From the NCBI RefSeq assembly GCF_900111485.1, contig NZ_FOIC01000001.1, forward strand, positions 1 to 64,000: DNA of 64,000 bases, written 5' to 3'. The translations under genes and the position numbers were made by a program. The notes below the pieces were generated by a model. That model did not search any database, was not told the DNA's origin, and worked only from the letters and a program-made list of their open reading frames with translations. Origin of the DNA: Natrinema hispanicum. GTDB taxonomy: Archaea; Halobacteriota; Halobacteria; Halobacteriales; Natrialbaceae. Shown here one piece after another: positions 5,271 through 63,674 of the stretch (its first letter is position 1; each line of letters opens with the position of its first letter).

Positions 5271-5299
5271 CTGCGACGACGATATCGACGGTGGGAAGC

Positions 5300-5361
5300 G
5301 CACGGCCGCAAATCCGACTGTGTCACCCCCTTTTCCGGGTGGCTTGGGATTGCGGAAGTGC
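5300..5361 (+). other. Imperfect hairpin in the rps15 leader
   Basis: Three nested stems can be drawn. GCAC 5300-5303 pairs with GTGC 5358-5361. CCGCAAATCC 5306-5315 pairs with GGGATTGCGG 5346-5355 with one mismatch. CACCC 5324-5328 pairs with GGGTG 5337-5341. This may be a structured 5' leader for the ribosomal protein operon or a separate small RNA. I see no box that assigns it to a known class. Confidence 0.35.
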
Positions 5362-10982: not shown

Positions 10983-12755
10983 ATGACCTCCCGACGGGCC
11001 GCCCTCGTCGCTGTGTTCGGCTGTTGTTTGATCGCCAGCACCACGATACTCTCCGGGTTCGCCTTTGCCACTGAACCGGCAGCGAGCGAGCGACACGTCG
11101 CTCGAGCACCGTCGGGTTTGGGTGGCAGCGACAGCGCGACTGCTCGTGCCTGTCCCGCTCGAGCGTCCACTACTCACCCCTCCACTGAGCCGCCACCAAG
11201 CCCGCAGATCGTTGGCCTCTCCCCGAACCCCACGACCGACGACGACGCCGGCGAGTTCGTCGTCCTCGAAACGCCACCTGACACTCGGCTCGCGGAGCTG
11301 ACGCTCACTGATGGCCACACGACGGCCGCACTCCCGAACGAAACGGTCTCCGGGCGCGTCGCCCTCAGTACGGCTCCGAACGTCACCGAGACGCTGACCG
11401 ACACCCCTGTCCTCGCACTCGAGGGACACCTCCAACTCGCCAACGGCGGTGATCGGCTCCGCCTTCGAAACGCAACGACGACGATCGACGCAGTGTCATA
11501 CGACAGCGCGCCGGCGGCCGAACGGTGGTATCGAACAGCGGCCCCTAACGAGGCGACCCCCGTTACCGACGGCCGGTGGTGGCCACGAGACGCGACCTGT
11601 CTGCCTGTCTCGAGCGCCGCAGTCGAAGAGGCGACGGCGTTCGTCCTTCCCGACGCGCCAGGCGTCCCACGGAAGACGATCCGATCTGCCGACGAACGGC
11701 TGTTCCTCGCCGGCTACACCGTCACCTCAGAGGCGGTCGCCGCCGACCTTGTCGACGCGGCCGAACGCGGCGTCGAGGTCCAAGTCCTCCTCGAGGCAAG
11801 CCCCGTCGGCGGGACACCGGCACCGACCGCAGACGTCCTCGAGACGCTCGAGGAAGGCGGCGTCGCGGTGCGAGTCATCGGCGGCGACGGTGCACGCTAC
11901 CGGTATCACCATCCCAAATACGCCGTCGCCGACGACCGCGTGCTAGTCACCACGGAAAACTGGAAGCCCGCAGGCGTCGGCGGCGAGAGCAGCCGCGGCT
12001 GGGGCGTCCGCCTCGAGGACGAGGCCCTCGCGGCCGATCTCGCGGGTGTCTTCCGAGCCGATTTCGAGGGATGGGATACGACCGCTAGCGCGGCCTATCG
12101 CGCGAACACCTCGTTCGTCGACGACGATGATCCGGTCGTCACCGCGCGTGATACTTCGTTTCCGACGGTCCACGAACCCGCAACGGTGCCTGTCGAGTCG
12201 GCCGAGCTGTTAGTCGCACCGGATAACGCCGAGTACCGGCTTCAGGACCTGCTCCGTGGGGCCGACGACGAGATTCTCGTCGTCCAACCCAGTATCGCAA
12301 CCGACGTTTCGCTACTCGAGGCGACGCTCGAGGCGGCCCGCCGCGGTGTCGACGTTCGCATCCTGCTCGGATCGACGTGGTACAACGCCGAAGAAAACAA
12401 GCGACTCGCAGCCGACCTTGAGCGCCTCGCTACCAGCGACGATCTCCCGCTCGAGGTGCAACTCGTTTCGGATACCGATCGCTTCGAAAAGATCCACGCG
12501 AAAGGCATCGTCATCGACCGGGAGATGGCGATCGTCGGCAGCGCCAATTGGAACGAAAACTCGCTCGAGAACAATCGCGAGGTGCTCGTCGTCCTCCATG
12601 GCGCGGAGATCGCGACCTACTACGCGGACGTATTCGAGACGGACTGGTCCGGCGATACCTGGCGGTTCCCGATCGGACTCAGCGCCACCGTCGTCGCTGC
12701 CATCGTCGGCCGACGCTATGTGCGCTTCGGGGGCCCACCGTCCGAATACACCTGA
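10983..12755 (+). CDS. Secreted phospholipase-D-superfamily protein with lamin-tail-like domain
   Basis: The 590-residue protein has a signal-type N-terminus (MTSRRAALVAVFGCCLIAST). Residues 60-165 resemble a lamin-tail/LTD beta domain (GEFVVLETPPDTRLAELTLT, GGDRLRLRNATTTIDAVSYD). Two HKD-type modules follow: YHHPKYAVADDRVLVTTENW around residue 310, and IHAKGIVIDREMAIVGSANW around residue 505. A hydrophobic segment near the C-terminus (GLSATVVAAIVG) could anchor it. The active site faces outside, so nucleic acid or phospholipid hydrolysis at the cell surface is likely. The first HKD keeps H-x-K, while the distal part is TTENWKPAG. Confidence 0.8.
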   Translation: MTSRRAALVAVFGCCLIASTTILSGFAFATEPAASERHVARAPSGLGGSDSATARACPARASTTHPSTEPPPSPQIVGLSPNPTTDDDAGEFVVLETPPDTRLAELTLTDGHTTAALPNETVSGRVALSTAPNVTETLTDTPVLALEGHLQLANGGDRLRLRNATTTIDAVSYDSAPAAERWYRTAAPNEATPVTDGRWWPRDATCLPVSSAAVEEATAFVLPDAPGVPRKTIRSADERLFLAGYTVTSEAVAADLVDAAERGVEVQVLLEASPVGGTPAPTADVLETLEEGGVAVRVIGGDGARYRYHHPKYAVADDRVLVTTENWKPAGVGGESSRGWGVRLEDEALAADLAGVFRADFEGWDTTASAAYRANTSFVDDDDPVVTARDTSFPTVHEPATVPVESAELLVAPDNAEYRLQDLLRGADDEILVVQPSIATDVSLLEATLEAARRGVDVRILLGSTWYNAEENKRLAADLERLATSDDLPLEVQLVSDTDRFEKIHAKGIVIDREMAIVGSANWNENSLENNREVLVVLHGAEIATYYADVFETDWSGDTWRFPIGLSATVVAAIVGRRYVRFGGPPSEYT

Positions 12756-12836
12756 GACGGGCTGTTGTCACTGTGGGACGGCGTACCACCTACCCGTCAT
12801 ACGGGTGTGCCGGAACTGACTGACAAGAGTCCGTAT
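12756..12836 (+). repeat. Dispersed ~80-bp palindromic element, copy A
   Basis: It starts directly after the TGA stop of the phospholipase-D gene (GACGGGCTGTTGTCACTGTG) and ends AGAGTCCGTAT. The central stem is CGGCGTACC 12779-12787 against GGTGTGCCG 12804-12812, fully paired if two G-U wobbles are allowed. It shares the terminal motifs and ACTGACTGACA segment with copies B-D. Confidence 0.75.
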
Positions 12837-12848
12837 GGAATATGAAAA

Positions 12849-20803: not shown

Positions 20804-20837
20804 GTGGTAACACATAGCATATAATCGGGTGATCGAT

Positions 20838-21014
20838 ATGTCTTCCCATCTAAACGACGACGCGGCAGATCGGAGCGAGCTGAGTAGTATCCCCGAAGGC
20901 ACTGCGACGATCGAATCCTACGAGACTGACGACGGCGTCGTCTTCTACGACGCGGAGAACCCTCTCGCGTGGGTAGAGACCTCCCGGACGCTCACGCTCG
21001 AGGATCTGGCCTGA
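20838..21014 (+). CDS. Small DUF7331-like protein
   Basis: The 58-residue acidic protein ends YETDDGVVFYDAENPLAWVE TSRTLTLEDLA. I associate this with haloarchaeal DUF7331. A 45-residue protein at 31920-32057 has the same core (ETDDG-x-V, AW-[IV]-E, TLSL), so the family occurs twice here. An in-frame ATG at 20829 is possible. No membrane segment or metal motif. Function unknown. Confidence 0.7.
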   Translation: MSSHLNDDAADRSELSSIPEGTATIESYETDDGVVFYDAENPLAWVETSRTLTLEDLA

Positions 21015-21140: not shown

Positions 21141-21629
21141 GTGGTATTCGACCGGACCGAGAACGAACCCGAGGAGTGGGATCCCGAGGAGGAGTTCTAC
21201 GACCCCGACGGCGACGGGTTGACGATTCCGCAGGTGACGACCGACGACGACTCGGATGCCGACGCCGAGTCCACGGCTGCGATCGATATACCGAGCGTGT
21301 CCACCGACGAGACGGACGTTCCAAGCGACGTCCTGGAGGCGTTCTGGGCGCTGGTGTTGGTCGTCAACGCCGCCCTCTTTGCCGTCTCGCTCGGAGCCTT
21401 ACTGCTCGTGTTCGAAGGCGACGTAACTCGCGGCAGCGCTCTCATCGCAGCCGGCACCGTCCTGTTCGGGCTCGCCGGGCGACGATACCGTGCGTTTCGC
21501 GCCGACAACGACGACGGTACAGCCGATGACGACCCCACTGGCGAGGATCGGTCCGCTGACGATGCAATCGAAACGGCTTCGGGTGACGGTGTCCAACAAC
21601 AGTCACCAACCCGTTCCGATCGCAAATGA
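21141..21629 (+). CDS. Small two-helix membrane protein (DUF7322-like)
   Basis: The product has 162 residues. The acidic N-terminal 65 residues (EPEEWDPEEEFYDPDGDGLT) are followed by two hydrophobic helices (LEAFWALVLVVNAALFAVSLGA split by a short acidic loop, then AGTVLFGLAGRRY) and an acidic C-terminal tail. Its last 4 bp overlap the next gene's ATG, so the two are co-translated. I associate it with DUF7322 from memory. Function unknown. Confidence 0.75.
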   Translation: MVFDRTENEPEEWDPEEEFYDPDGDGLTIPQVTTDDDSDADAESTAAIDIPSVSTDETDVPSDVLEAFWALVLVVNAALFAVSLGALLLVFEGDVTRGSALIAAGTVLFGLAGRRYRAFRADNDDGTADDDPTGEDRSADDAIETASGDGVQQQSPTRSDRK

Positions 21630-22084
21630 ATACCGTCAAGGATGACACCGGAAAACGATACCTGCTTCTCAAACACTCCGACAGCGCGAGTCTCGTTCGC
21701 GATCCCGAAACCGGCAACGAGTGCTACGTCCAGAACGACCGCTTAGAGCGCGTTGACGGAGACTCACCTCTCGAGACGGCCGCTCGCAGCGTCGGCGATC
21801 CCGTGTTGACGCTGCTTACGACCGTTCACGACGAGGAAACGTTCGGGCTGTTGATCGAACTCGCCGACAGAGGACCGCTCGGCGTTCGCACGCTGCTCGA
21901 TGCCTACGACTTGTGCGAGAGTGACCTACACGGCCGGCTGACGGTCCTCGCAGCCGCCGGACTGCTCGAGGAAACCGAGGCCGCCGGCGAACGCGGCTAT
22001 CAGGTTACGGACACCTGTGAGACGGCACTCGAGGCAGTTCGACCAGCAGTTGCATCGACGGATGAAAACACGGGTTCTGACTGA
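21626..22084 (+). CDS. Winged-helix-like protein (DUF7346-like)
   Basis: The 152-residue product has residues about 60-140 that look like a winged helix (TTVHDEETFGLLIELADRGP, LLDAYDLCESDLHGRLTVLA, AGLLEETEAAGERGYQVTD). The N-terminal part carries a small beta domain. A transcription regulator or adaptor working with the membrane protein encoded just upstream is plausible, since the two overlap by ATGA. The TGA stop is shared with the first base of repeat copy B. Confidence 0.7.
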   Translation: MNTVKDDTGKRYLLLKHSDSASLVRDPETGNECYVQNDRLERVDGDSPLETAARSVGDPVLTLLTTVHDEETFGLLIELADRGPLGVRTLLDAYDLCESDLHGRLTVLAAAGLLEETEAAGERGYQVTDTCETALEAVRPAVASTDENTGSD

Positions 22085-22163
22085 TACGGACTTCTGGACG
22101 TCAGTGCCGGCACACCCGCGACCCGTCAGCGGGTGCGCCGGGACAGCGGGACAGCAGACCGTC
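22084..22163 (-). repeat. Dispersed ~80-bp palindromic element, copy B
   Basis: It begins ATACGGACTTCTGGACGTCA, whose first A is the last base of the TGA stop of the upstream gene, and ends CAGCAGACCGTCT. The central stem is CCGGCACACCC against GGGTGCGCCGG with one wobble-type change. It sits in the 102-bp gap between the convergent DUF7346-like and rad50 genes, in the opposite orientation to copies A, C and D. Confidence 0.75.
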
Positions 22164-22186
22164 TGACGCGACGAGACGATCACGCC

Positions 22187-24877
22187 TCACGTGTCCGACG
22201 CGAGTAGTTCCGCCTCTGGTGGCTCGCCCCGCTCGAGCCGCGAGCGGTTCGACGTGGCGTCTTTCTCGACGCGGACGAGCGAATCGGCCGCCCCGACGAG
22301 TTCTTGATCGTGGCTGACGACGATGATCTGCTCGACACCGAACTCGTTGCGCATCGATTCGATCAGCGAGGCGAGTTGGGTGACGTGACCTGAATCGAGG
22401 AAGACCGTCGGCTCGTCGAGGATCAGCGGCGGCATCGGCGCGGTTCCGTCGACGCCTTCGGCCAGCAGCCGATAGATCGCACACCGCAAGCTGAGATTAA
22501 AGAGCGCCCGCTCACCACCCGAAAGCTGCTCTGGCTCTAAGGCTTCGCCGTCTTTCTGGTAGACCGTCAGTTGGTAGTCGCCATCAAGATCGATCGCCGC
22601 GTAGGAGTCGTTCTGATAGACCAGATCGAACGTCTCGTTGAGCAGCCGTTCCAAGGTCTCGACGTTGTGCTGGCGCAACTCTGCCCGCAACTCCCCGTAG
22701 GTCGTCTGGAGTGTCTCGGCTTCGCCATACAGCGACTCGAGGTGTTCACACTGTGTCTCGACGCTCTCTAAGCGCTCGCGAAGCCGCTCGAGTTCCTCGA
22801 GTTTCTCCTCGACGCCGCCGATCTTCCCCTGTACCCCGGCACGGTCGGCCTCGAGTTCCGTGAGTTTCTCCTCGACTTGTTCGATGTACTGCTCGGCGTT
22901 GCGTTTGTCTTCGCGGGCGGTTTCGACCCGTTCGCCGTCGAATTCGGACTCGAGGTCGCGCTTGCGCTCTCGTTTTGCCGAAAGGGTCTCGCGGCGCTCC
23001 TCGTTGATCTCCGCCCAGTCGGCCATGCGCTCGCGACGCCGTTCGATCTCGCTTTCGAGGGTCGCCCACTCGTCAGCGATCTCGGAGAGGCGCTCGAGCG
23101 TCTGGATCGTCTCCGTAAGCTCCCCGCGCTCGGTATTGATCTCACCGAGGGCGGCCCGCGCGTCGGCCACTTCGGCTTCGCGTTCGTCGGCCGCGGCCCG
23201 CTTCGTGTCGGCCTCAGACTCGTACTCGTCGGCGTCCGCTCGCAACTGATCGCGCTGGTCGCGCCGGTCCGCGATGGCCTCGCGTTTCTCAGCGAGTAAC
23301 TGTTCGACGTTCTGGCGGTTGTCCTCGAGCCGGTCGACTCGCTGCTCGGCCTCGAGCAACGCCTCGGCGCGGTCGATCCGGTCATCTAGCTCGGTGCGTT
23401 CGGCTTCGAGTTCCTCGCGTTCGGCCACTAACTCGTCACGCTCCGCGCGACGATCGTCCAGCACGTCGACGTGTGGCGAGTTCTCGACCGGCTGGCCGCA
23501 CTCGGGGCACTTCCCTTCCTCGAGCAGCCGTTCACCCTCCTCGATGGCGTTCTCGGCGGCCCGGATGTCTGCAGTGACGTCGTTGAGTTCCGCGGTCAGC
23601 TCCTCGCGGTCGGCTTTGAGAGACTCGAGGTGCGATTCGGCCGCGCCGAAGTCGACGGGTGCGTCGTCGAAAGACGCCCGCGCGTCCGCGATCTCCGCCT
23701 CGAGCTCCTCGAGTTTCGTTTCGCGCTCTGCGATCGTCTCCTCGTCGTCCTCGATTCGCGCTGTAAGGTCGTCGGCTTCGTCTCGGGCAGCTTCGGCCTG
23801 TGCCTCGAGCTCGTCGGCTTCCTCGCGGAGCCGTTCGATCTCTTCGGTGCCGGTTTCGATCGTTACCGTGACGTCCTGTAACTCGTCGGCAAGTTCCTCG
23901 GCGCGGGCCTCGAGGTCGTCGATTCGGGCCTGAATCGTCTCCTCATCGGGGTCGGCAGTCTCGAGGTCGACGTCTTCGAGCAGTCCGGTCCGCTCGTCGG
24001 CGAGGGTCTCACGTTGCGCTCTGATCTGGCTGATCTCGTCGCTCGCATCCTCGCGCTCCCGTTCGGTGTCTTCGATTTTCGACTGCAGCGCCGCGATTTC
24101 GTCCTCGAGCGTGTCGATCTCTGCGCGAGTTTCCTCGTGGCGCTCGAGGACGTCTTGGGCGGTCTCGAGGGTCTCACGGGCCTGCTCGCGCTGTGCTTCG
24201 TAGTGGTCGATCTCCTCGGTGAGATCGGCGCGGCGGGACTCGAGGTCGTTGAGTTGTGCGTGGAGGTTCTGTGCTTCCTTTTCGTCGACCTGTTTCCGGA
24301 GCGTGTCGAGTACCTCGCGCTGCCCATCGAGGACCGTTTTGACACCGAGTCGGGCGTCGCTGGCGCGTTCGCGGTAGTCCTCGAGCGCGCCAAGCTGCAG
24401 GAGATCGTCGATCATGTCCTGGCGGTCGCTCGGCGAGGCGTGGATGAGCTTGTTGACCTCGCCCTGACGGACGTACGCGCAGTTGACGAACGCCTCGGCG
24501 TCCATCCGCAGGAGGTCGGTCACTTCGCGGCGCACGTCGCGGGCCCCCTCGATCGTCTCGCTCAGTGTCTCGAGGATGCATTTCGTCGTGGTCGCGCGAT
24601 CACCGCGCAGTTTGAGCCGGCGCTCGATGTGGTACTCGTGGCCGTCGTGGGTGAACCAGAGTTCGACCTCGGCTTCCTCCTCGCCGGTCGTGATGACGTC
24701 GTCTAACGTGCGATCATCGAGTGCCTTCGAGCCGTAGAGTGCGAAGAAGACGGCCTCGAGCAGCGTCGACTTCCCGCTGCCGTTGACGCCGTGAACGACG
24801 GTGACGCCGCGCTCGAGGGCGAGGTCGGCGTCGCCGTAGCACTTGAAGTTCAGCAGGCGGACGCGGTCGACCCTCAT
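22187..24877 (-). CDS. rad50: DNA double-strand break repair ATPase Rad50
   Basis: This 896-residue SMC-like protein has Walker A VNGSGKSTLLEA near residue 35, a long coiled coil, the zinc hook CPECGQP near residue 457, then the returning coiled coil, the signature LSGGERALFNLSLR and Walker B LILDEPTVFLDSGH. The pairs of ATPase heads bind Mre11 to tether and process broken ends. It overlaps mre11 by 4 bp (ATGA). The tail after the ATPase (ERGEPPEAELLASDT) is short. Confidence 0.97.
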   Translation of the reverse strand: MRVDRVRLLNFKCYGDADLALERGVTVVHGVNGSGKSTLLEAVFFALYGSKALDDRTLDDVITTGEEEAEVELWFTHDGHEYHIERRLKLRGDRATTTKCILETLSETIEGARDVRREVTDLLRMDAEAFVNCAYVRQGEVNKLIHASPSDRQDMIDDLLQLGALEDYRERASDARLGVKTVLDGQREVLDTLRKQVDEKEAQNLHAQLNDLESRRADLTEEIDHYEAQREQARETLETAQDVLERHEETRAEIDTLEDEIAALQSKIEDTEREREDASDEISQIRAQRETLADERTGLLEDVDLETADPDEETIQARIDDLEARAEELADELQDVTVTIETGTEEIERLREEADELEAQAEAARDEADDLTARIEDDEETIAERETKLEELEAEIADARASFDDAPVDFGAAESHLESLKADREELTAELNDVTADIRAAENAIEEGERLLEEGKCPECGQPVENSPHVDVLDDRRAERDELVAEREELEAERTELDDRIDRAEALLEAEQRVDRLEDNRQNVEQLLAEKREAIADRRDQRDQLRADADEYESEADTKRAAADEREAEVADARAALGEINTERGELTETIQTLERLSEIADEWATLESEIERRRERMADWAEINEERRETLSAKRERKRDLESEFDGERVETAREDKRNAEQYIEQVEEKLTELEADRAGVQGKIGGVEEKLEELERLRERLESVETQCEHLESLYGEAETLQTTYGELRAELRQHNVETLERLLNETFDLVYQNDSYAAIDLDGDYQLTVYQKDGEALEPEQLSGGERALFNLSLRCAIYRLLAEGVDGTAPMPPLILDEPTVFLDSGHVTQLASLIESMRNEFGVEQIIVVSHDQELVGAADSLVRVEKDATSNRSRLERGEPPEAELLASDT

Positions 24878-37485: not shown

Positions 37486-37590
37486 CAAGCTTTGTGCTTC
37501 GCCCGGATCGACGTCCGCCCCGTTTTTGATTTTCGACCGGACTCACTCCGTTCACCAGTCCGAGCCACGTCACGGTCTGAACCGCTATTC

Positions 37591-37672
37591 ATACGGTCTG
37601 CTGTGACGCTGTCCCGGTGGGGCCGCGACCCGCACTGCGATCCCACCGGCACTGACTGACAGGAATCCGTAT
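37591..37672 (+). repeat. Dispersed ~80-bp palindromic element, copy C
   Basis: It starts ATACGGTCTGCTGTGACGCT and ends CAGGAATCCGTAT, so the termini are perfect ATACGG/CCGTAT inverted repeats. The central stem is CCGGTGGG against CCCACCGG. This differs in sequence from the CCGGCACACCC/GGGTGTGCCGG stem of copies B and D but remains paired. It separates pcc1 from pfdB, which are adjacent in many archaea. Confidence 0.75.
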
Positions 37673-37738
37673 CAAGTGGGCTGAAAGTGACGAGAAAGCC
37701 TATAGGTCTGCCAGTATCGATCGCGAGCGAGTCGCTGT

Positions 37739-55768: not shown

Positions 55769-55779
55769 ATATGGGTTGG

Positions 55780-57756
<1,977 letters not shown>

Positions 57757-58093
57757 GGTACACCCAGTCAATTATCGACTACCATAGTAAAGGCGGCCTC
57801 TAGTTGTGCAAAATCGATCCGATACTCACAGGGTAACAGAGGGAATATTGACTATATTAGGGGAAAAGCGGCAGCCTCACACGCGAAAAACGGGGTGAAA
57901 TCGGTGGTGCGACGAGCCACTCGATGGCAAGCCGTCAGCTCGTGCGTGCCAGTCGATATCAGATCAAGCGTCAGTGACACTAAATCGAACGACGGATCTA
58001 GAGACTTAGTCTCAAATCGACCAGTAAGCGCCACCCCCTCACACCACAGTCGCGCGATCCCGAACTGCCGGCAGTGGCTCGTGAACAGGCGGT
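57757..58093. other. 337-bp gap: acs1 promoter and 3' flank of the HTH-10 gene
   Basis: A TATA-like TTTACTA (minus strand, about 57785-57791) lies 30 nt before acs1. Elsewhere a 13-bp palindrome GAGACTTAGTCTC occurs at 58001-58013 with an AAATCGA direct repeat on each side. No ORF is credible in this stretch. Confidence 0.45.
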
Positions 58094-60310
58094 CTAACCG
58101 TCCGGATCGTCCAAGAACGTTCGAAGCAACTCGTGTTGGCCCTTTCGCAGGTGATTGTGCAGCGTCGGTGAGGAGACACCCATCGCGTCCGCGACCTCCT
58201 CGGCCGTGCTCTCTCTGGGCCAGTCGTAGTACCCGCCGAAATACGCCGCGCGAAGCGCTGCCTCCTGGCGATCTGTCAAGCGGTCCTCGAGGCCTTCCCG
58301 GAACTCGCGGGCAGTCTGGACGGTGCGTTCGGTCTCACGTTTTCCGACCAGTTCGGAGTCCGGAAACACGGATCGCAGGCCGTCGAGGATGGTCCGAATA
58401 TCCGCATCGACTGCACAGTCGCCGGTGATCGTCCCCGTGCCGTCCTCGAAGACCGCCTCGCGGACGGTGACGCCGTACTCCGTCAGCGTGACGATCGGAC
58501 AGGAACCGTCGATAACGAACTCGATACGCCAGCCGTCTTCGTCGGTCTCGACAAGCCGACAGTCCTCGATTCCAGGGTCGTCTTCGGCGAGTTCGAAGAC
58601 GTCGGCCGGTGACGCTCCCTCGAGACGGACGTAGTAGAGCTGGGTCGACTCGTCGATCGGGACCAGCGAGTCGAGTTCGAAGCGACAATCGAGTCGTTGT
58701 GATGCGTCGACGAAAAACGAGCGTTCGTCGCGACAGGCGACCTCGAGTTCCGTCACGCGGTCGGACAACAGGAGGTTTCGCCGGCGGATGGCGGCGATCG
58801 CGTAACCGACGTGCCGACCGATCGTCGAGAGCCACGCGCGCTCGTCATCGTCGAACGCACCTGGGCGCTCGGTCGCGACCGAGAGGAGCCCGTAGACGGT
58901 ATCGCCGTAGGCAAGCGGGACTCGCGCGACGGCCCCCTCGAACGTGTCGTCCTCGAGCGATGCCGTCACGTCGGTTGCGACGAGGACCGTCCGGTCCCCG
59001 GCCTGGGCTGCCGTCGCCGAATCCGCGCCGTCGGGACCGGTGGCTGGCTCGTTGTCCCATTTCTCAGGGAGGACGCGCTCGACCGCATCAGGCTCGAGCC
59101 CGCTGGATGCACGCCACTCCCGACGGTGGTCCGACATCGTTGCGCGGTCGATCCACGCGAACTCGTAGGCTGTGCCGTCGGTGAGGGCGGTACAGGTCGA
59201 CGTTTCGATCTCTTCGTGATCCGTTGAATCTAGTAACGCGTGCGTAACGTCTCGGTGACGGCGTGCGACCGCGTACAGTCGATCGAGTTCCTCGCGCTTT
59301 TCGCGGGCGGTCGCGAGTTCCTCGTGGGCGACCGTGACGTCGCGGACGAAGACGGCAAACCCCCGGTGTCGGCCCTGATCGTCCCGCAGCGGCGAGATGA
59401 CTTCGGTCGCGCGAAACTGTGAGCCGTCCTTGTGGACACGCCACCCCTCGGTCTCGGTGCCCGATTCCTCGATGGCCGTCGACAGCGCTCGTTCGGGCGC
59501 GCCGTCCTCGACGGCGGCGTCGGGATAGAACGTCGAAACGTGCGTGCCGACGATCTCACCGGCTCGGTACCCGAACATGGCCGCTGCACTGCGATTCCAG
59601 CGCTCGACGTAGCCGTCCGAATCGAGCCGAAGCAATGCGTATCGATCGCTTGCCGCTAGTAAGAGGCGAATGACGCTGTCGTCGCCGATCACTGGGCCCG
59701 ACTGGCCGCCGGATCGGTCGTGTCCAGGGCCCGACGGCCGCTCGACGGCGTCGAAGGCGTCGACGATTTCGGTATCGGTCGGCTCGGGTAAATAGGACTC
59801 GAGGGCCTCGAAACTGCGCCAGCCGCCCGCTGTTTTGACGACGCGGGGATTGACGTCGTGTTCGACCAAGGCAGTGTGGGCGAAGTACTGTCGGAGATCG
59901 CTCGTCGAAAGGTCGGCAAGCCCAGGGTCGTTAAACAGTTCGCTTGCCCGCTCGGCGACGTCAGAGACCAACATCTGTAGCCGGCGAGTCGTCACCGAGA
60001 ACACCCGCTCATTGGTCGAGAGCCCGTTACTCCGTGCGTATCGCCGGAGTTCGCGTTCGACGCGAGTCGGCAGATACGCGGTTCGATCCCGCCCACCGTC
60101 GTCGGACGGAACCCGGACGAGATACCGCGGTGGATCGATTCGTACCTGCTCGATGTCGTCGATCGTGAGCCGCGTGAGCTCCGCCGGCCGGAGGCCGACG
60201 TCGGCACAGAGGCGAATCACCAGCGCCTCGCGGTAGGTTTCGGCAGCGTCGAGAAGCGACTCGTACTCCTGGCTCCTGAGTACCGCCCCCATCCCCTGCT
60301 CGAGGCTCAT
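58094..60310 (-). CDS. Recombinase-fold/PAS/GAF/bacterio-opsin-activator HTH-10 regulator
   Basis: The product has 738 residues. Residues 1-185 resemble a tyrosine recombinase catalytic domain: ADVGLRPAELTRLT gives the first Arg, STSDLRQYFAHTALVEHDVN gives the second Arg, AGGWRSFEALESYL gives Trp and Tyr, but the usual His of the HxLR box is Ser. A PAS domain follows at 220-340 (YVERWNRSAAAMFGYRAGEI), then GAF at 345-505, a BAT domain, and HTH-10 at 675-730 (LTDRQEAALRAAYFGGYYDW, HNHLRKGQHELLRTF). It is a sensor-type transcription regulator. Sitting between two acs genes, it may control them. Confidence 0.85.
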   Translation of the reverse strand: MSLEQGMGAVLRSQEYESLLDAAETYREALVIRLCADVGLRPAELTRLTIDDIEQVRIDPPRYLVRVPSDDGGRDRTAYLPTRVERELRRYARSNGLSTNERVFSVTTRRLQMLVSDVAERASELFNDPGLADLSTSDLRQYFAHTALVEHDVNPRVVKTAGGWRSFEALESYLPEPTDTEIVDAFDAVERPSGPGHDRSGGQSGPVIGDDSVIRLLLAASDRYALLRLDSDGYVERWNRSAAAMFGYRAGEIVGTHVSTFYPDAAVEDGAPERALSTAIEESGTETEGWRVHKDGSQFRATEVISPLRDDQGRHRGFAVFVRDVTVAHEELATAREKREELDRLYAVARRHRDVTHALLDSTDHEEIETSTCTALTDGTAYEFAWIDRATMSDHRREWRASSGLEPDAVERVLPEKWDNEPATGPDGADSATAAQAGDRTVLVATDVTASLEDDTFEGAVARVPLAYGDTVYGLLSVATERPGAFDDDERAWLSTIGRHVGYAIAAIRRRNLLLSDRVTELEVACRDERSFFVDASQRLDCRFELDSLVPIDESTQLYYVRLEGASPADVFELAEDDPGIEDCRLVETDEDGWRIEFVIDGSCPIVTLTEYGVTVREAVFEDGTGTITGDCAVDADIRTILDGLRSVFPDSELVGKRETERTVQTAREFREGLEDRLTDRQEAALRAAYFGGYYDWPRESTAEEVADAMGVSSPTLHNHLRKGQHELLRTFLDDPDG

Positions 60311-60311
60311 A

Positions 60312-60336
60312 GTTCGCTCCTTTTGGTTTCGCGAAC
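60312..60336 (-). promoter_or_regulatory. Inverted repeat over the ribosome site of the HTH-10 gene
   Basis: GTTCGC and GCGAAC arms (60312-60317 and 60331-60336) enclose 13 nt. On the mRNA the second arm includes part of GGAG (60317-60320), and the ATG follows one base after the repeat. A TATA-like ACAATTATG lies at 60337-60345, so the site could be an operator or an mRNA hairpin blocking translation. Confidence 0.5.
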
Positions 60337-60435
60337 ATAATTGTATCGCCTCTTCCCGGCGTTCGTAAGGGGTAATCGAGATCGGTCAGAAACTCCAACC
60401 CGGATTGATTTCGGACTATCTGAGTTTACGAAACG

Positions 60436-62427
60436 TTACTGGCCGGAGTGGCTGCCGTCCCCGACCTCGGCCTGAATCTCACCGACGATCTCGGGATTCC
60501 GGAGTGCGCTCGTGTCCCCGAGCTCCTCGCCGTTGGCGACGTCCTCGAGCAGGCGGCGCATGATCTTGCCCGAGCGGGTCTTGGGTAGTTCCGGCGTGAA
60601 GATCACCTCGGCGGGGCGGGCGATCGGGCCGATCGCTGCCTCGATGCTCTCGAGGATGGCAGAACGGATGCTTGCATCCGGCTCGCGCTCGCGTTCGGTG
60701 CTGACATAGGCGTAGATCTCGGTGTTGCCGGTCTCGTTCGAGCGACCGACGACGGCGGCCTCGGCGACGCCATCGACGTCGGCGATCGCGCCCTCGATCT
60801 CCATCGTGCCGAGCCGATGGCCGGAGACGTTGATGACGTCGTCGACGCGGCCGAGGACAGTGATGTAGCCGTCCTCGTCGATCCGGGCCGTGTCGCCACT
60901 GAAGTAGCGCCACTCGTCGGCATCGGGATCGGAAAAGCGCTGCCAGTACTCGGTGACGAACCGCTCGTCGCCGTCATACAGTGTCCGGGCCATTCCCGGC
61001 CACGGACGAGCGATCGTGAGATAGCCAGTCTCGCCGGGTTTAACCGCCTCTCCTTGGGAGTCGATCACGTGAGCGTCGATTCCTGGCAGCGGCGGGCCGG
61101 CCGAGCCGGGTTTCATCTCGTCGACGCCCGGCAGCGTCGAGATCGCCACTGCGCCGGTCTCGGTCTGCCACCACGTATCGACGACGGGACAATTGCCGCC
61201 GCCGATATGCTCGCGGTACCAGTTCCAGGGGCGGGGACTGATCGGCTCGCCAACGGTGCCGAGCAACCGCAGCGAGGAGAGATCGTGTCGGCCAGGATAA
61301 TCAGGCCCCCACTTCATGAACGCGCGGATCGCCGTCGGGGCAGTGTAGAAGACGTCGACGGCGTTTCGGTCGACGATCTCCCAGAGTCGATCCCGGTCGG
61401 GATAGTCGGGCGTCCCTTCGTACATGACCGTCGTCGTCCCAAGCGCAAGCGGCCCGTAGACGATGTAGGAGTGGCCCGTAATCCAGCCGATGTCGGCCGC
61501 ACACCAGTAGGTGTCCTCGGGCTTGATATCGAGGACTGCATGGCTCGTCCACGCGACATGGGCAAGATAGCCGCCCGTCGAGTGGACGACGCCTTTCGGC
61601 TGGCCAGTCGTCCCCGAGGTATACATCAAGAACAGCATGTCCTCGGCGTTACGCGAGACCGGCTCGACCGTCTCGCCGGCGAACTCGGCACACAGCTCGT
61701 GATAGTCCCACTCGTCGTCGCCGAGAACGTGTGGCATATCGTCGCCAAGCCGGTCGACGACGACCGTCCGGACGTCCTGCTCGAGGCCGATGCGGGCATT
61801 ATCGGCTTTGCTCTTCTGGTTGAAGGCGTCGCCACGCCGGTAGTACCCGTCGCAGGTGATCAGGAACTCGCTGTTTGCGGCGTCCATCCGTGTCGCGAGC
61901 GCGTCCGCAGAGAGGCCAGCGAAAACGACACTGTGGGGTGCACCGATCCGGGCACACGCCAACATCGCGATCGGCAGTTCGGGGATCATCGGCAGATAGA
62001 TCGTGACGACGTCGTCCTCTTCGACACCGAGGTCGCGCAGCGCTGCCGCGAACTCGTTGACTTCGACGTAGAGGTCCTGATAGGTGTAGGTCCGGCGCTC
62101 GCCTTGCTTGCCCTCCCAGCGGATCGCGGCGTGATTTTTCCGCCCCGACTCGAGATGGCGATCCAGACAGTTGTAGGCGGCGTTCAATCGGCCATCGGAA
62201 AACCAGCGGTAGAAGGGGGCGTCGTCGTCCTCGAGGACGGTGTCGTAGGGGTCGTCCCATGAGAGGAGGTCGGCCGCACGCGTCCAGCAATCCGGCCAGT
62301 TCGTCTCGAAGCGCTCGTGAATCGCCGGATCCGCGACGTTCGCCTGCTCGACGAACGAGTCGGGAGGACTGAGGGTGGAGCCTGACGGTGTCGAGGTCTC
62401 GTGGCTCCGCCCGTTTCGTTCGACCAT
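60436..62427 (-). CDS. acs: Acetyl-CoA synthetase, second of two
   Basis: The 663-residue enzyme is closely related to the first copy along its whole length: SFVEQANVADPAIHERFETN, YTSGTTGQPKGVVHSTGGYL and PKTRSGKIMRRLLEDVANGE. The N-terminal 25 residues differ. ATG 62427 is preferred over the in-frame ATG at 62478, because a TATA box at 62456-62463 fits it. The two genes are ancient tandem duplicates separated by the HTH-10 gene. Both keep all catalytic motifs, so neither is a pseudogene. Confidence 0.96.
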   Translation of the reverse strand: MVERNGRSHETSTPSGSTLSPPDSFVEQANVADPAIHERFETNWPDCWTRAADLLSWDDPYDTVLEDDDAPFYRWFSDGRLNAAYNCLDRHLESGRKNHAAIRWEGKQGERRTYTYQDLYVEVNEFAAALRDLGVEEDDVVTIYLPMIPELPIAMLACARIGAPHSVVFAGLSADALATRMDAANSEFLITCDGYYRRGDAFNQKSKADNARIGLEQDVRTVVVDRLGDDMPHVLGDDEWDYHELCAEFAGETVEPVSRNAEDMLFLMYTSGTTGQPKGVVHSTGGYLAHVAWTSHAVLDIKPEDTYWCAADIGWITGHSYIVYGPLALGTTTVMYEGTPDYPDRDRLWEIVDRNAVDVFYTAPTAIRAFMKWGPDYPGRHDLSSLRLLGTVGEPISPRPWNWYREHIGGGNCPVVDTWWQTETGAVAISTLPGVDEMKPGSAGPPLPGIDAHVIDSQGEAVKPGETGYLTIARPWPGMARTLYDGDERFVTEYWQRFSDPDADEWRYFSGDTARIDEDGYITVLGRVDDVINVSGHRLGTMEIEGAIADVDGVAEAAVVGRSNETGNTEIYAYVSTEREREPDASIRSAILESIEAAIGPIARPAEVIFTPELPKTRSGKIMRRLLEDVANGEELGDTSALRNPEIVGEIQAEVGDGSHSGQ

Positions 62428-62455
62428 GTATCGTTCGAAACGTGGTCGGTCAGAT

Positions 62456-62463
62456 GAATAAAC
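62456..62463 (-). promoter_or_regulatory. TATA box of the second acs
   Basis: The minus strand has GTTTATTC, centred about 32 nt before ATG 62427. An imperfect palindrome around 62512-62528 (ACGGT and ACCGT arms) lies further upstream and might be an operator. Confidence 0.45.
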
Positions 62464-62568
62464 GTTCCTCTGGACCACCGCGCAGTGAGACGCGCCGTTG
62501 CAATCAATGAAACGGTCGGTTGAACCGTATTTCGGCCCACAGCAGGGCGATTCGAGCGTCGTTGGGGC

Positions 62569-63069: not shown

Positions 63070-63150
63070 AGGGGTATGTCATACGACAGCGGACGTAAAT
63101 GTTCTCCCTCCAGCAAACGGGGACTCGGGTTCGAGTACTGTTTGACACTC

Positions 63151-63231
63151 ATCCGGGCTGCTATCACTGTGTCCCGGCACACCCACACCCGTCATGCGGG
63201 TGTGCCGGAACTGACGTCCAGTCGTTCGTAT
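63151..63231 (+). repeat. Dispersed ~80-bp palindromic element, copy D
   Basis: It starts ATCCGGGCTGCTATCACTGT and ends GTCGTTCGTAT. The last base belongs to the TGA stop of the USP gene on the minus strand. The central stem CCGGCACACCC (63174-63184) pairs perfectly with GGGTGTGCCGG (63198-63208). It lies in the gap between the two USP genes. Confidence 0.75.
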
Positions 63232-63674
63232 CACTGGTCCCGGGCATCGTCGTCACCGACGACCAGTACCGTCCGATCGGCGACCCTGACGACCCTATCG
63301 ATGGTGCTGCCGAGCAGTGCCCCCTTGAGCGACGAGCGGCCCCGGGCACCGACGACGATCACGTCGATGTCGTTCTCGCTTGCGTACGCGAGAATCTCTT
63401 CGTGGGGGACGCCGGTCCGAACCGCCGTCTCGACGGCCACGTCGGCGTCAGCCGCTTTCGATTCGACCGTCTCGAGCCAGCCTGCGGCCCGCTTGCGAAG
63501 GTGTTGCAGAGCCTCATCGGGATCGACGATCCCCGTGTCGTACTCGGTCCGGTCGTCGGCGACGGCGATGCCGTACAGTGGCGAGTCGAACTGCGCTGCG
63601 AGCGCGAGCGCGTAGTCGACCGCAGTCGTCGCCGTCTCGCTGCCGTCAGTTGCGACCAGAATCGAATCGTACAT
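63231..63674 (-). CDS. Universal stress protein (UspA family)
   Basis: The 147-residue protein begins MYDSILVATDGSETATTAVD and ends VVGARGRSSLKGALLGSTID RVVRVADRTVLVVGDDDARD Q. The ATP-binding pattern G-x2-G-R-S-x8-G-S is complete. Its stop codon abuts repeat copy D. It is the third USP of the acetate block. Confidence 0.92.
   Translation of the reverse strand: MYDSILVATDGSETATTAVDYALALAAQFDSPLYGIAVADDRTEYDTGIVDPDEALQHLRKRAAGWLETVESKAADADVAVETAVRTGVPHEEILAYASENDIDVIVVGARGRSSLKGALLGSTIDRVVRVADRTVLVVGDDDARDQ

Follow-up and report, generated by a model that had tools for sequence, protein, structure and literature searches.

The nearest described repeats to the family analysed here are the MITEs, PATEs and SMRs of Haloquadratum walsbyi (PMC3119063). 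Like the present family, the MITEs described there are short and non-coding, have inverted terminal repeats and a target duplication, and are presumed to be mobilized in trans. They differ in having ends in common with a named transposon, whereas none was found for the present family, and the 3-bp TNA duplication and the siting at stop codons that mark the present family are not reported for them in the text consulted (PMC3119063).

The window, by which we mean the whole 64,000-nucleotide stretch of DNA that was analysed, contains four copies of an ~80-bp palindromic element. The original prediction located all four within 1–3 bases of the limits obtained by direct reading and alignment, and it correctly gave the second copy (22082–22166, minus strand) as inverted relative to the other three, which lie on the plus strand. 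A covariance model made from the four copies matches only those four places in the window and finds no fifth copy; its E values there (~1e-32 to 1e-35) come from a model built from the same four copies, and the rest of the genome is the fair test. The copies have no match in Rfam. Elsewhere in the window, positions 5291–5361 hold an S15-Halobacteria ribosomal protein leader (Rfam RF03143, 73 bits).

Copy 1 (12753–12838, plus strand) consists of an element at 12756–12835 preceded by TGA at 12753–12755, where a PLD-like gene (10983–12755, plus strand) stops, and followed by a degenerate right triplet, TGG. The element of copy 2 (22085–22163) lies within a TGA duplication (22082–22084 and 22164–22166) whose first triplet terminates a DUF7346 gene (21626–22084, plus strand), and it sits between this gene and a convergent Rad50/SMC-like gene (22187–24877, minus strand). 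TCA is duplicated at both ends of copy 3 (37589–37674, plus strand; element at 37592–37671), which is not at a called stop codon and has compensated changes in its inner stem (CCGGTGGG / CCCACCGG). Copy 4 (63149–63233, plus strand; element at 63152–63230) likewise has a TCA duplication, and its right TCA (63231–63233), which reads TGA on the minus strand, terminates a universal stress protein gene (63231–63674, minus strand). At 55771–62478 lies a duplicated large gene with two long stretches ~4.67 kb apart that are 73–76 per cent identical (for example, 56062–56361 and 60733–61032). None of the four copies holds a gene, as had been claimed. All four were also described as intergenic, which must be qualified: the flanking triplet is a neighbouring gene's stop codon in three of the four; neither the target duplication nor the stop-codon siting was among the original claims.

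In an oriented alignment of 30 copies, the element is a near-palindrome of 79–81 bp. Its terminal inverted repeats are ~13–15 bp long and of the TACGGTCTGCTGT type, and the outer stem that they form (TACGGTCTGCTGT / ACAGGAGTCCGTA) is paired in 90 per cent of cells. The shared ends had been recognized, but their conserved form is TACGG(T/A)CT(G/C)CTGT...ACAG(G/C)AG(A/T)CCGTA, with a direct T(G/C)A repeat outside it, rather than ATACGG...CCGTAT; the CTGYTGTNAC segment assigned to all copies is not strict, as copy 2 has CTGCTGTCCC. Between the outer and inner stems are two spacers that are conserved, unlike each other and non-complementary. The inner stem (CCGGTGCACCCGC / GCGGGTGCACCGG, with a short loop) is the anticipated central GC stem: it is GC-rich, and its two sides change together in 43 cells versus 15 expected by shuffling, far above every slid control, although part of this count reflects inheritance within subfamilies, because cells count copies and not events. 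Mean identity among copies in the source genome is 75 per cent, and the closest pair is 96 per cent identical.

The copies are flanked by a 3-bp direct repeat, which is T(G/C)A or, rarely, TAA or TTA. The triplet differs between copies but agrees at the two ends of any one copy (TGA..TGA or TCA..TCA in 25 of 30), and therefore it is not part of the inverted repeat. The same two repeats flank 85 of the 149 copies in the larger set listed, and the duplication is exact in 53 of the 60 best-scoring copies. Sites with and without the element decide the matter. The copy 2 site is filled in the source genome and in N. hispanicum but empty in N. limicola, which reads ..GTG TCA GTCAGAACCCG.. with a single TCA. 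An empty target site in the window itself is the single TGA stop codon at 21012–21014 (plus strand) of a small gene (20829–21014, plus strand): the source genome has GGCC TGA GACGGGCTGCGG, whereas the same flanks enclose TGA-element-TGA in N. limicola, and the orthologous site is occupied in both N. hispanicum and N. limicola. Two further filled and empty pairs (locus L151 versus L178/L179, a nested insertion, and L073 versus L072) differ by exactly one element and 3 bp; L171 differs by the same amount from the source genome near 8072, with TAA as the orthologous stop codon. Among relatives, filled and empty states alternate at the orthologues of the 21012 stop codon, which suggests several independent insertions. 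Copy 2 and its N. hispanicum counterpart (L063, 14073–14158) have many differences within identical immediate flanks; this is a hint of gene conversion, with another copy replacing the earlier one, or of a repeat insertion at the same stop codon.

The original prediction had left the family as either a non-autonomous MITE or REP-like, and the evidence favours the first: the copies have terminal inverted repeats and a target duplication of fixed length, occur in patchily distributed hundreds without a transposase gene and, because a filled site exceeds its empty counterpart by precisely one element and 3 bp, are of the MITE rather than the REP type. Movement of a REP/BIME-like family via single-stranded hairpins, with a Y1 (RAYT-type) transposase as the enzyme, would account for the ~80-bp hairpins, the high copy number, the intergenic siting, the compensated stem changes and the lack of a parent IS, but not for direct repeats of 3 bp and for empty sites that are clean; REP/RAYT-type elements are not known to make a target duplication. 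Single-strand insertion also predicts a bias of orientation relative to the target, which is absent here (38 copies in one orientation relative to TGA versus 47 in the other). The genome yields three Y1 matches only, and the single Y1 transposase near a copy belongs to an ordinary IS200/IS605-type gene pair ~1 kb away. We therefore regard the REP/BIME explanation as highly improbable.

The four window copies fold better than their shuffles (z of -2.6 to -3.3), and such stable folds, together with the covariation of the inner stem and the siting just after stop codons, are what functional elements under selection, such as RNA hairpin terminators or stabilizers of mRNA 3' ends, would be expected to have. 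Selected hairpins that are not mobile DNA would, however, fit poorly with presence and absence between close relatives, with whole genomes of the same genus that have no copies, with duplications that show recent insertion and with the evolution of copies into genome-specific types. There is accordingly very little chance that the family consists of immobile functional elements; the elements may have a secondary effect on transcripts.

With gene calls from a simple codon-usage gene caller, later refined, a called gene stops at the duplicated triplet in 49 of the 85 copies with an intact duplication, against a background of ~7.8 per cent stop codons among intergenic T(G/C)A triplets. The pattern recurs under independent annotation of PLSDB plasmids, where a CDS ends exactly in the triplet for five of the eight copies examined; on pLC1Hm-01 this holds for two of three elements, one of them with TAA. 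Outside the host family, 19 of 31 duplications close a reading frame that is open for 80 codons or more, versus 22 per cent of control TGA/TAA positions. The target preference is wider than the triplet, with C at -1, A at -2 and CG at +3/+4. An excess at stop codons could thus arise from this local motif and purifying selection alone, if insertion were blind to genes and copies elsewhere were lost. The motif is also found at copies that are not at stop codons, weighting by it lifts the expected stop fraction from 8 per cent to 18–30 per cent overall, and few copies lie in divergent, promoter-bearing regions, all of which agrees with such an origin. In convergent regions, however, where a promoter would be unharmed either way, 22 of 29 copies are on a stop codon versus 20–36 per cent expected with motif weighting, the upper values of both ranges being conservative because the motif was trained on all copies; moreover, several lineages carry an element at the orthologue of the 21012 stop codon and their sister lineages do not. 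We consider motif and selection alone a serious possibility, though one with somewhat less than an even chance of being the full explanation. The motif explains only part of the excess, and the residue is left to true targeting or selection.

The family extends far beyond the window. The source genome is that of a haloarchaeon, as had been proposed, and belongs to a Natrinema/Haloterrigena relative; sequence from it was taken as two contigs and selected stretches. A genome-wide profile search found more than 100 additional places (best independent E value, 6e-26), and the family occupies at least ~130 places in the source genome among the matches listed, after removal of double matches on both strands. 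A 19-bp end pattern has 117 matches in the genome, compared to 0 for the same pattern read backwards as a mirror control, and contigs C53 and C54 (672 kb) carry 34 copies at E<=0.01, which extrapolates to ~200 per genome. At strict thresholds, the covariance model matches 95 of 125 genomes and 23 of 29 genera of the host family, and 81 of 293 genomes sampled from the order, 37 of those 81 being outside the host family. The distribution is patchy: within the host genus alone, the copy number ranges from more than 100 to 0. Elements outside the host family are 78–81 bp long, mostly 79–80 bp, and have the same TNA duplication, but each genome has terminal repeats of its own, with little or no difference between the two ends (genome G221, TACGGTCGGTTGTAA; G334, TAGTGGTTGCTGTAA; G333, TACGGATTATTGTAA). 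Hence the terminal repeats vary between genomes, yet both ends change together. The G221 copies are nearly identical, so activity in that genome was recent. No match to the element occurred in a phage collection, and exact scans of IMG/VR for its ends gave unpaired matches of the chance type, besides one single hit in a further scan.

An IS with matching ends, which the original prediction had led us to look for, was not found in scans of the genome, contigs, a plasmid and DDE_Tnp_1 loci. The end-pattern scan of the source genome and follow-up stretches returned truncated copies only and no autonomous partner, and none was recovered by terminal-repeat pair scans of 2.6 and 2.98 Mb, among the genes between neighbouring copies, on one element-bearing plasmid of 224 kb or with all 57 ends (15-bp) in the recently active G221. 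DDE_Tnp_1 loci fetched from the source genome and eight others had no TACGG... ends and no IS5-type transposase between matching ends. The partner may be a stand-alone gene or may have been lost; it may also match over shorter ends or come from a different transposase family. Three zero-copy genomes (G003, G006 and G010) have few DDE_Tnp_1 genes (1–4), and five copy-rich genomes (G020, G002, G016, G019 and G024) have 6–56 each; across these eight genomes, the relation of DDE_Tnp_1 gene number to copy number is a hint at most. Because a single genus contains genomes with more than 100 copies and genomes with none, the missing enzyme should be findable by comparative genomics.

We conclude that the family very probably comprises MITE-type non-autonomous elements that are mobilized in trans, with a TNA cut that leaves a 3-bp duplication, often at stop codons. 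TNA is the duplication made by IS1031-type IS5 elements, and the duplications observed here, mostly TGA or TCA, are of this type. From the 3-bp TNA duplication, the unbiased orientation and the paired change of the ends, we infer that the mobilizer is a DDE-type enzyme acting in trans with an IS5/IS1031-like TNA preference. Such a transposase would recognize the ~13–15 bp terminal repeats, make cuts staggered by three bases in a TNA target (overwhelmingly T(G/C)A, ideally in the context ACTGAnnCG) and insert the element in either orientation, so that the triplet is duplicated. No stop codon is used more often here than TGA, and gene ends commonly offer the preferred context, so that a stop codon would often be struck. 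The duplication would regenerate the stop, and the insertion would therefore be nearly harmless and persist; it is presumably through this neutrality, with the stop codon duplicated and not destroyed, that copies are retained and that gene-dense genomes tolerate insertions by the hundred. Two points count against this account: the searches above yielded no autonomous element with matching ends, and the length is near-constant across an order, which would be unusual for internal-deletion derivatives of different parents. A more speculative proposal, which we consider rather unlikely, is that archaea across the order have a dedicated transposase, encoded elsewhere than between the element's own ends, that spreads palindromes of constant length preferentially into stop codons; such a system would be a counterpart of REP/RAYT with a staggered TNA cut, in which the ends co-evolve with the enzyme in each lineage and the targeting of stops spares the host.

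Other small elements resemble the family. Two G221 copies (L310, 1498–1663, and L336, 1498–1663) contain a second, 78-bp element with a TAA duplication and TACTG... ends (TACTGCCGGCTGTAA or TACTGGTGGCTATAA), and similar sequences are found on Haloarcula and Halomicrobium plasmids. A third family of 107–108-bp palindromes has TACTGTCGGACAGAA-type ends, TACTG(T/C)CGG..., and TCA, TTA or TAA duplications; it is present in G002 as well as the source genome, and several Natrialbaceae, N. magadii among them, carry it on plasmids (loci L246, 371–483; L228, 1468–1581; L191, 5965–6078; and L134, 12272–12385). The three families likely belong to a superfamily of small TNA elements.

The open-access papers searched contain no description of the present family, and the genome papers on Natrinema and Natrialba do not mention the repeat; an earlier description elsewhere is possible. 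The family thus appears to be an undescribed and very widespread mobile repeat of haloarchaea. Many genes owe an altered 3' end to its elements, a point that bears on annotation and on transcript studies in Natrinema, Haloterrigena and their relatives.

Among known systems, REP/RAYT repeats are likewise short, palindromic, extragenic and present in high copy number, but they are not known to make the clean 3-bp duplication of the present family. The IS1031 subgroup of the IS5 family has the 3-bp TNA duplication in common with it, although no transposase has been linked to the present element. In RUP of Streptococcus pneumoniae, the duplication is TA and the partner IS is known. Similar to the present element, RUP is a non-autonomous repeat (~100 bp) that is presumed to be mobilized in trans, but it is bacterial and unrelated in sequence (PMC3049150, which gives the link to IS630-Spn1). 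SMR-A and SMR-B of H. walsbyi, as described, resemble the present family in length (~80–110 bp), in their prominent inverted terminal repeats, in lacking a transposon of similar ends and in their strong target preference, and they reach up to 54 copies (PMC3119063). By the same description, however, SMRs make no target duplication and target PATE/IS605 palindromes, whereas the present family duplicates TNA and is sited at stop codons (PMC3119063).
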